Below, one piece after another: positions 3,852 through 23,247 of a DNA stretch of 64,000 bases. The translations under genes were made by a program, and so were the position numbers. The stretch is from NCBI GenBank assembly GCA_030602885.1, contig JAUVYV010000020.1:1-64000 (forward strand), given 5' to 3'. The DNA is from Phycisphaerales bacterium (GTDB taxonomy: Bacteria > Planctomycetota > Phycisphaerae > Sedimentisphaerales > Anaerobacaceae). Positions within the stretch are counted from its first letter, which is position 1; each line of letters starts with the position of its first letter. Below the pieces are notes generated by a model that had not been told where the DNA came from, did no database searches, and was given only the letters and a program-made list of their open reading frames with translations.

Positions 3852-4280
3852 GTCGCCTGTGGGACAGGCGAAGTAGGGAAAGCATACCTCCGCCTGCAAC
3901 CCCCGGTGAAACCGGGGGCTAAGGTCGCCTGCGGGGCAGGCGAAGTAGGGAAAGCATACCTCACGCCTGCAACCCCCGGTGAAACCGGGGGCTAAGGTCG
4001 CCTGTGGGACAGGCGAAGTAGGGAAAGCATACCTCCGCCTGCAACCCCCGGTGACCCTCCGTTTGTAGTGTCTGCGGAGCTCACCTCGAGGGCAAGCAAC
4101 CGGGGGCTAAGGTCGCCTGCGGGGCAGGCGAAGTAGGGAAAGCATACCTCCGCCTGCAACCCCCGGTGAAACCGGGGGCTAAGGTCGCCTGCGGGGCAGG
4201 CGATGAGGGTAAGTGGACCTCACGATTGCGCCCCACCGGTGAAACCGGGGGTTATATACGTCGCCTGCAAGGCAGGCGAG
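3852..4280. repeat. Tandem array of ~72-bp units (gtcgcctgcggggcaggcgaagtagggaaagcatacctccgcctgcaacccccggtgaaaccgggggctaag), about 6 copies
   Basis: Unit starts at 3852, 3924, 3997, 4112, 4184, 4260; each complete unit has two hairpins (gcctgcggggcaggc and cccccggtgaaaccggggg). Confidence 0.9.
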
Positions 4281-4549: not shown

Positions 4550-4577
4550 GCCCCCGGCCAAAGGCCGGGGCTAAATA
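4550..4577. repeat. Palindromic element gcccccggccaaaggccggggctaaata
   Basis: Same architecture as the hairpin of the 72-bp array and the palindrome inside aroA, including the 'ctaaata' flank. Confidence 0.75.
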
Positions 4578-19842: not shown

Positions 19843-20985
19843 ATGGCTTATCCCTCTGTGGACCAGTTACAGAAAGTGCTGACGGAATCAGTTTTTAGTT
19901 ATGCGAAAGACTCTAAGAAAGCAGCGGGGCGTGCTCTTGGCATGCTTGTCGAGGTGGTGACATTTTACCTATTGACGGCGTGGGGACTGGAAAAGTACAT
20001 TGCTATTGAACGGAGGTTGCCGGAATATAGCAATGAGGATATAACCCATAATGTTGAGTACTCCCTTCACCCGAGCACTTTAGTTGCTCGTCTCAAATTC
20101 GGGATAACAGAACTTCCTATTTCCGTTGCCAAAATAGCAAAGGCGTTGCTCGGTGCAGGTAAGATTAAGGACATGGAGACCCGTAAGAGCCACCAGTTGC
20201 TCTCATCTCAGCTTATTTTGCGAAATGCTTGTACGATTGCTGAAACCGGAGATAGCTTATTGGTGGCATCACTTGAGGATTTCACAGGGACTGCAATGAC
20301 TGTGGCTGTACATCGGCTTCACTGTCATCCATACGCAATTGCCGAGTGTAAGCGTGTAGGGGTTGAAGAAGGCACAAAAAAGGGGCCTCAGACAATTGAG
20401 AAGGCGAAGCAAGGAGCGTATGTTGCTCGTACGATATCGTCATTGCAGAGGATTCGCCTCGCAACAGGAGAGATTGGTGGCGTAATTCACCGCGCCGATG
20501 GTACGTTGCAGTTTAAGATGTACGGAGAGTTCTTGGAGGAGGTAATTGCATCGGATGATAAAGACCTCTTAGAACATTTTATCCTCACGGTAGGTGTTGT
20601 GAGCAATCACGGCAACTGGTTCACATCCGATGACCACAATAAGGAACTGAAGGTTCTCGCTCAATCATATGACTGGTTGCTTTTCTTGACAGATAAGGGA
20701 CTTGGCGACTTTGTTACAGACTTAATCACCGCGCCATCGAAAGAATTTGAGCCAGTGCGTGATGCATTTCTTGTAAGTTATACGGGCAAGAGTGGCTCAA
20801 ATCAGTTCACAAAGGTTCAGATGAACCTGAAAGCAGACTTGCTTTTGCAGAAGTACTTCCAAGATAATTTTGATAGGATACAGTCTTGGTTCAATATAAT
20901 ATCACCGGAAGGTAAAGACCTAAAATCTTTGCACGATGAACTTCATAATCTCACGCAAAAGGACTGGAGCAAAATTCACGAATGA
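19843..20985 (+). CDS. Putative type II restriction endonuclease (PD-(D/E)XK-like)
   Basis: 380-aa ORF with D-x(21)-E-C-K (EDFTG...YAIAECKRVGVEEG); overlaps the methyltransferase gene by 4 bp (ATGA). Confidence 0.6.
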   Translation: MAYPSVDQLQKVLTESVFSYAKDSKKAAGRALGMLVEVVTFYLLTAWGLEKYIAIERRLPEYSNEDITHNVEYSLHPSTLVARLKFGITELPISVAKIAKALLGAGKIKDMETRKSHQLLSSQLILRNACTIAETGDSLLVASLEDFTGTAMTVAVHRLHCHPYAIAECKRVGVEEGTKKGPQTIEKAKQGAYVARTISSLQRIRLATGEIGGVIHRADGTLQFKMYGEFLEEVIASDDKDLLEHFILTVGVVSNHGNWFTSDDHNKELKVLAQSYDWLLFLTDKGLGDFVTDLITAPSKEFEPVRDAFLVSYTGKSGSNQFTKVQMNLKADLLLQKYFQDNFDRIQSWFNIISPEGKDLKSLHDELHNLTQKDWSKIHE

Positions 20986-21584
20986 CAGCGGGCAGAACAA
21001 TTAATTCGAAGAGCTGGGATTGGGGAACACCTAAGAAATATGTGAATGCAGTTCGTAGGGTTTTCGGTGGTAATATCGACTTGGATCCGTGCTCAAATGA
21101 GTACTCAATTGTCGGTGCAAAGACAGAGTATCGCTTGCCGGAGCATGATGGCTTAGCGGAATCATGGGATTACCGCACAATCTATGTCAATCCTCCGTAC
21201 GGTTCAGACAAAGAACACGGGACAAACATAAGACGCTGGCTGTACCGGTGTGCAGAGGCTCATATGAAATACGGTTCCGAGGTACTTGCTCTTGTCCCGG
21301 TCGCCACCAATACAGGGCATTGGAAGAACTATGTATGGACACAAGCCACGGCTGTATGCTTCCTTTACGATACGCGACTACGTTTCTTAGTGAACGGAGA
21401 GGACGAAGGGAAGGGGGCTCCAATGTCTTGTGCTATGATCTACTGGGGTGAGAACTATGATAAGTTCTTCAGTGTATTCCTAGAATTTGGTGCGGTTACT
21501 GACCTCCGTCCACTTCGTGGTCACCGGATTGGGAAACACAGTAAGTTAGTGACGCTGTCGCTCTTTGGGCAAGGCCACGAATAG
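20982..21584 (+). CDS. DNA N6-adenine methyltransferase, phage Dam-like family
   Basis: SWDWGTPKKYVNAVRRVFGGNIDLDPCSN ... IYVNPPYG (NPPY motif IV). Confidence 0.85.
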   Translation: MTAGRTINSKSWDWGTPKKYVNAVRRVFGGNIDLDPCSNEYSIVGAKTEYRLPEHDGLAESWDYRTIYVNPPYGSDKEHGTNIRRWLYRCAEAHMKYGSEVLALVPVATNTGHWKNYVWTQATAVCFLYDTRLRFLVNGEDEGKGAPMSCAMIYWGENYDKFFSVFLEFGAVTDLRPLRGHRIGKHSKLVTLSLFGQGHE

Positions 21585-21942: not shown

Positions 21943-23247
21943 TTATTTTGTTGTTTTCATGTTGGCGCCGAGGGTGGTCATCAGCTCGACGAAGTCGGGG
22001 AAGGTGACGTTCATTGCCTCGGCGGTGTCGATGGTGCAGTCGCCGATGGCCAAGCCTGCCAGAGAAAGGGCCATTACTATACGGTGGTCGGAACGGCCAT
22101 CCAGAAGGAAACCCCCAGTGAAACTGGGGGCTAAATATTCAGGGGCACGGGCGCCTTGTATGATGAGGCCGTCGGGGAGTTCTTCGGAATCGATATTCAT
22201 CTTTTTGAGTTCGGCGGCCATGCAGGCGATACGGTCGGTCTCTTTGGTTCTGGCCTGGGGGACGTTTACCAATCGAGTCTCGCCTTCGGCGAAGGCGGCG
22301 GTGACGGCCATGGCGGGCAGGGCGTCGGGGGTGGCGTTCATATCGATTTCGACACCGGTAAGCTGGGCGGCCTTGATGACGACCGAATCGGGGTTGACGG
22401 TGATGTCGGCGCCCATTTTGCGGAGGTAATCGACAACGGCCTTGTCGGGCTGGCTGTCGGCGAAGTCGAGGCCGGTAAGTATCACCTCGTCGGCGATAAG
22501 GGCTGCTGCGCAGAGAAAGAAGGTTGCGCTGGAAAAGTCGGCGGGGATGGCGGCATCAAAGGCGCCGTAGTGCTGGGCGCCTTTGATTTTGAAATTTCTG
22601 AAATCGTTGTTTTCGTATTGGATGTTCTGTTTGTCGAGCCAGTCGAGTGTCATTTGCACGTAGCCGGGCTCGTTGAGCAAGGTGACATCGATTTCGGTAT
22701 CGTCCTGTGCAAGCGGAGTGCAGAGCAGCAGGGATGAGAGGTACTGGCTGGTGGAGGCGGCGATGGTGGTCTTTCCGCCTTTGATTTGGCCTGTGACGGT
22801 AACAGGGGGTTTGCCGTTGTTTTTGATGCTGGTGCACTTTGCGCCGAGGTCCTGGAGCGAGCTCATGAGTGGGCCGACGGAGCGGGTCTGTATTTGCTCG
22901 TCGCCTATGAAGGCGGTGCTTTGGCCCGGGGATGCGAGGGCAGCCGAGCCCATTGCGATGCGAAGGGTGGTTCCTGAGTTGCCGACGTCGATGGTTTCCG
23001 CCGGCGGCTTTATCTTTCCGCCTGTGCCTGTGACCAGCCATGCCTTTGGAACGGAGGTATCGATTTCTGCACCGAGGGCTTTGTAGCAGCGAACGGCCGA
23101 GAGGGTATCGCTGGAAGCGAGTGGGACACGGATGGTGCTTTGGCCTTCGGCAAGCGAGGCGATAGCAATGGCGCGGATGGTGTGGGACTTCGAGCCGGGG
23201 ATGGCGACTTTGCCTTTCAAACGTGATTTTGCGACAACGAGCTTCAT
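21943..23247 (-). CDS. aroA: 3-phosphoshikimate 1-carboxyvinyltransferase (EPSP synthase)
   Basis: KLVVAKSRLKGKVAIPGSKSHTIRAIAIASLAEG, VGNSGTTLRI, DHRIVMALSLAGL; start placed at MKLVVAK rather than the longer ORF. Confidence 0.93.
   Translation of the reverse strand: MKLVVAKSRLKGKVAIPGSKSHTIRAIAIASLAEGQSTIRVPLASSDTLSAVRCYKALGAEIDTSVPKAWLVTGTGGKIKPPAETIDVGNSGTTLRIAMGSAALASPGQSTAFIGDEQIQTRSVGPLMSSLQDLGAKCTSIKNNGKPPVTVTGQIKGGKTTIAASTSQYLSSLLLCTPLAQDDTEIDVTLLNEPGYVQMTLDWLDKQNIQYENNDFRNFKIKGAQHYGAFDAAIPADFSSATFFLCAAALIADEVILTGLDFADSQPDKAVVDYLRKMGADITVNPDSVVIKAAQLTGVEIDMNATPDALPAMAVTAAFAEGETRLVNVPQARTKETDRIACMAAELKKMNIDSEELPDGLIIQGARAPEYLAPSFTGGFLLDGRSDHRIVMALSLAGLAIGDCTIDTAEAMNVTFPDFVELMTTLGANMKTTK
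22108..22139. repeat. Palindromic element located in frame inside aroA (gaaacccccagtgaaactgggggctaaatatt)
   Basis: Same hairpin consensus as the 3852-4280 array and 4550-4577; encodes about 10 residues (YLAPSFTGGF) on the minus strand. Confidence 0.85.

Follow-up and report, generated by a model that had tools for sequence, protein, structure and literature searches.

The aroA gene of this Phycisphaerales genome carries a TTAG-tagged REP-like palindrome, most likely mobile, that is inserted in frame. We hold with considerable confidence that this palindrome was mobilised by a transposase, entered the gene ahead of the DHR motif without breaking the reading frame and has been tolerated in a permissive loop of the AroA enzyme. 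In what follows, the window is the whole stretch of 64,000 nucleotides that was analysed, and the features of the locus itself are these:

21943 to 23247, minus strand: aroA (EPSP synthase), 434 residues, intact open frame, Pfam PF00275 at 327 bits
22110 to 22137, minus strand: TTAG-tagged REP-like hairpin, TATTTAG CCCCCAGT TTC ACTGGGGG TT, of a repeat family with compensatory stem changes
22108 to 22137, minus strand: element-written peptide YLAPSFTGGF, codons 371-380, a net nine residues more than orthologues in the alignments
22081 to 22089, minus strand: DHR motif, six residues past codon 380, retained

The aroA product matches PF00275 with an E-value of 1.7e-97, has 3-phosphoshikimate 1-carboxyvinyltransferases as its best PDB matches and is 53-76% identical to its aligned orthologues (n=27). 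Its loop between LIIxG and DHR comprises 21 residues (ARAPEYLAPSFTGGFLLDGRS), against 12 in nearly all the family and order orthologues seen (for example GRPKPAELHGRS), and the extra codons, TAT TTA GCC CCC AGT TTC ACT GGG GGT, are those of the palindrome read from its TTAG end. The element is 28 bases long (TATTTAGCCCCCAGTTTCACTGGGGGTT on the minus strand), is built of TATTTAG, an 8-bp stem, a TTC triloop and a closing TT, and is read in frame as YLAPSFTGG(F). The first-pass annotation, made from the letters of the window, had proposed an in-frame palindromic repeat that lengthens a loop of aroA and adds approximately this peptide on the coding strand, and both proposals are confirmed. Its loop length of 21 was correct and its normal length of about 10 was close, the gain being nine residues rather than about 11; the alignment with relatives that it recommended for defining an insertion of about 10 residues gave this net figure. 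The objection that it had itself raised, that orthologues might have an equally long loop with unrelated codons, fails because their loop is of 12 residues.

The residues beyond the insert, D387, H388 and R389, are invariant in the AroA alignment (A1) and form the DHR active-site motif of EPSP synthases. An AlphaFold2 model made from 28 aligned sequences (pLDDT 93.5, pTM 0.91) places the insert in a loop that connects two strands directly before the helix starting at DHR. Residues 368-376, which overlap the insert, are the sole stretch of this model with pLDDT below 50, and the insert is predicted to be a disordered surface loop of an otherwise confidently modelled enzyme.

The palindrome belongs to a dispersed family, with 24 places in the genome lying within three mismatches of the aroA 25-mer (none for the reversed control) and 15 places of the narrower hairpin class. 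The intergenic relatives that had been claimed for an array at 3852-4280 and for 4550-4577 are real and lie at the following positions:

3898 to 3922, minus strand: intergenic hairpin copy in the array, from the search allowing up to three mismatches
3971 to 3995, minus strand: intergenic hairpin copy in the array, from the same search
4158 to 4182, minus strand: intergenic hairpin copy in the array, from the same search
4552 to 4575, minus strand: intergenic copy with a different stem, TTTAG CCCCGGCC TTT GGCCGGGG

A census based on pattern searches and fetched stretches found the class pattern in 53 of the order's 163 genomes and in 34 of its 84 genera, the reversed pattern occurring in no genome; the hairpin family was found in 37 of 89 family genomes, and the highest class count was 85 places (in G016). 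In the family consensus, TATTTAG is followed by an 8-bp stem (for the class to which the aroA copy belongs, CCCCNNGT/ACNNGGGG) around a loop of three bases, mostly TTC or TTT, and then by TT; nearly all copies have the TTAG tag, which the search patterns themselves required. C-G, G-C and A-T pairs interchange at stem positions 4-6 across copies, so that base pairing is kept while the sequence changes, and at position 6 the aroA copy has an A-T pair against G-C in most other copies of its class. The family therefore has the character of a short palindrome present in many copies that is expected of REPs. Since the exact 19-mer stem-loop of aroA has no second copy in the genome, a direct source copy of the element was not found, and an Rfam scan of the window returned one tRNA and nothing relevant to the hairpin. 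REP/BIME arrays are known from enterobacteria, and the array at 3852-4280 resembles them in its alternating palindromes but differs in tag and sequences; it is BIME-like in having a unit of about 73 bp in which a TCGCC...GGCGA palindrome alternates with the TTAG hairpin. In one hairpin of this array, at about 4045-4108, roughly 45 bp of foreign sequence interrupt the loop.

The source genome has six Y1_Tnp genes that meet the Pfam cut-off, and TTTAG hairpins lie near five of the six, each gene with its own stem type: CCTCGGCC at the C7 gene, CCCCCCAAT on both sides of the C125 gene, CCGGGGTC on both sides of the C69 gene, CCCCCGGT at the C19 gene and CCCCACCT at the C54 gene. The C19 hairpin, TTTAG CCCCCGGT TCC ACCGGGGG, lies 7 bp from the start of the Y1_Tnp open frame and falls into the class to which the aroA element belongs, and a C19-type transposase is presumably what mobilises that class. 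In the 108 kb around 36 Y1_Tnp matches from ten genomes, perfect hairpins number 21. The background, 224 kb drawn from aroA loci, has none; it is unmatched for repeat content and includes repeat-poor genomes. The hairpins thus show the repeat-specific association with Y1 transposase genes by which REPs are recognised, and such repeat-specific REP-RAYT pairing is a known pattern of GTAG REPs (PMC3733652). All five hairpin-flanked Y1 proteins have the HxH motif and four have the tyrosine at the expected place; against the NCBIfam RAYT model NF047646 the Y1 proteins score at most 65 bits, with a cut-off of 80, and one is without a match. In the RAYT-like protein at G000:C7:18664-18984 (L132:1147-1608), Cys replaces the putative catalytic Tyr, giving VARCK where its four relatives have VARYK, VAHYK or VSYYK.

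We therefore assign the element to a REP/RAYT-like system of Planctomycetota and not to the Rickettsia palindromic elements (RPEs), because it is about 28 bp long, is TTAG-tagged and has copies adjoining Y1 transposase genes. The likeness to RPEs drawn in the first-pass annotation stands for the effect, a palindromic repeat in frame within conserved protein genes (aroA here; guaA, pepA and others in the relatives G009 and G070), but not for membership, as RPEs are described as 105-146 bp long (Ogata et al. 2000, as reviewed in PMC2229807) and the element, from a different phylum, is set apart by that length and by the tags described. RPE-4/6 are CGTC-tagged REPs, and CGTC REPs have been reported without transposase association (PMC3733652). 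The features shared with GTAG REPs and REPtrons are a palindrome of 20-40 bp, one end of which is an unpaired tetranucleotide, its occurrence beside Y1 genes, stem subfamilies with paired changes, and a mostly intergenic distribution as singletons, tail-to-tail dimers and arrays (PMC3733652). The aroA element lacks the unpaired GTAG tag of that superfamily, and so is filed as REP-like; it differs further in that one loop of a biosynthetic enzyme appears to have been re-entered across genera. Intragenic REPs are already known, GTAG REPs having been found even at about the same recB site in two Xanthomonas species (Di Nocera et al. 2013, PMC3733652), and what is new here is the TTAG class, along with the transposases that are candidates for moving it, and the recurrent use of the AroA loop. 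The TTAG class has no occurrence in the main text of PMC3733652, and no earlier description of TTAG with RAYT, or of palindromic repeats in Phycisphaerae, was found in the open-licence papers searched.

Occurrence of the palindrome in other coding sequences, also suggested at first pass, was seen in relatives rather than in the source genome, whose examined copies include no clear insertion inside a coding sequence other than that in aroA. One copy there, at C17:28455, contributes the final residues of an rmuC-like gene together with its stop codon, and long frames across hairpins at C49, C17 and C124, which matched no family, were regarded as spurious. Among 120 stretches from relatives, mostly taken around repeat copies, G009 has in-frame copies in guaA (14 residues that lack a counterpart in solved GMP synthases and most other family members), in pepA (16 residues) and in the gene for a 4Fe-4S/cysteine-rich-domain protein, and G070 has one in a type IIG restriction-modification gene. 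The guaA and pepA copies are tail-to-tail dimers joined by CTAAATATTTAG, with one open frame throughout that is read as PAVKPQAKYLAPRFTRG in guaA and PPVELGAKYLGLRLTRG in pepA. The element can be read through without a stop in three of its six frames, and all three are used in other proteins. The GuaA site of the G009 dimer is a second recurrent insertion loop; the GuaA proteins of G086 and G083 (L323 and L337) have 23-residue insertions there that consist of different long palindromes. The GuaA sequences L308 (G013:C358) and L309 (G009:C273) are 100% identical over their match and G013 also has a different guaA, and the two bins are probably cross-contaminated; G013 was rejected as a carrier, its own guaA being without the copy and the C358 protein being that of G009, and the insertion was counted for G009 only.

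In two other genera, represented by G009 and G070, this AroA loop again holds a hairpin of the family, with orientation and frame (YLAPxFTGG) unchanged; G009 (g10) has TKYLAPRFTGGLF, with a second hairpin ahead of it, and G070 (g33) has NNYLAPRFTGGFL. The stems of the three carriers differ (CCCCCAGT, CCCCCCGT and GCCCCGT), no target-site signature of insertion was found in them, and the insertions amount to a net 27, 45 and 21 bp, which points to trimming or divergence of element and loop. The loop region was matched in 137 genomes across the order and is clearly longer only in these three and in G067 and G053, where other hairpins occupy it; hairpins also occur in further AroA loops of other genomes. 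The claim that every AroA insertion is palindromic proved too strong, the stem being longer than the same-gene background in 8 of 15 (p<=0.04, six of these at p<=0.01). In the AroA proteins of G034, G079 and G023 (L079, L083 and L068), 22-23 residues are inserted near position 212-214 of the alignment, and these insertions consist of long inverted repeats of other families.

A common site, orientation and frame in all three carriers is what a single old insertion in an ancestral aroA would leave, as would one that spread through local gene conversion or through transfer, and we regard either as rather unlikely. On an AroA tree built with the insert loop masked, a single clade of the three carriers is rejected (AU test, p_AU 0.0067), and G070 groups with G056 (FastTree 0.998; SH-aLRT 97), which has an ordinary, insert-free loop despite 18 repeat-class places in its genome; the differing stems and the extra hairpin ahead of the G009 copy also speak against one origin. 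Because the single clade is rejected and supported branches require at least two changes of insert state, separate entry of hairpins into the same loop in related genera is the better reading, although one gain with multiple later losses, or gene conversion confined to the loop, is conceivable.

The same recurrence at one site of one gene in one frame, with hairpin complementarity preserved within coding sequence, might instead indicate that the insert is kept for a function, the peptide tuning AroA or the mRNA hairpin tuning aroA translation or stability. We judge this quite improbable, given a loop that is predicted to be disordered, the unrelated hairpins in the same loop (G067, G053) and in other AroA loops, the lack of any insert in most relatives and the use of all three open frames by other proteins. 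Chance resemblance or an assembly error is hardly credible: the assembly consists of 128 contigs, and assemblers can be misled by repeats, but the 28-bp family match has an intact frame, similar inserts occur in three separate assemblies from different genera, and the reversed control gave no match.

If, as we favour, the palindrome is transposase-mobilised and tolerated, the hairpin with its tag would be recognised in single-stranded form, and mobilised, by small Y1 transposases of the HUH/tyrosine, RAYT-like kind, its open frames would let some insertions extend a protein rather than break a gene, and those in a flexible surface loop would survive because the enzyme still works, leaving the element in AroA as tolerated mobile DNA. 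We infer both the mobilisation by Y1 transposases and the functional neutrality; tolerance in a flexible loop is the simplest account, and has been proposed for an RPE-bearing guanylate kinase, which is active (both as reviewed in PMC2229807). That the loop before DHR is instead a preferred landing site of TTAG REPs throughout the family, through transposase target choice or through selection that favours the added peptide or hairpin, seems doubtful; were it so, a mobile repeat would be remodelling a core enzyme repeatedly and non-neutrally.

These observations extend protein-coding palindromes, best known in Rickettsia and from intragenic GTAG and CGTC REPs, to Sedimentisphaerales-type Planctomycetota, where candidate transposases are present in the same genomes as the TTAG class. 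The recurrent entry of hairpins into AroA and GuaA loops provides replicate natural experiments on mobile DNA adding peptide segments to proteins, and these bear on the neutrality of such additions to core enzymes. Close to aroA, the window encodes a Dam-type DNA N-6-adenine methyltransferase at 20982-21584 (PF05869; an orphan methyltransferase in PADLOC), directly preceded by a 380-residue open frame at 19843-20985 that has no Pfam or PADLOC match and is possibly its restriction partner.
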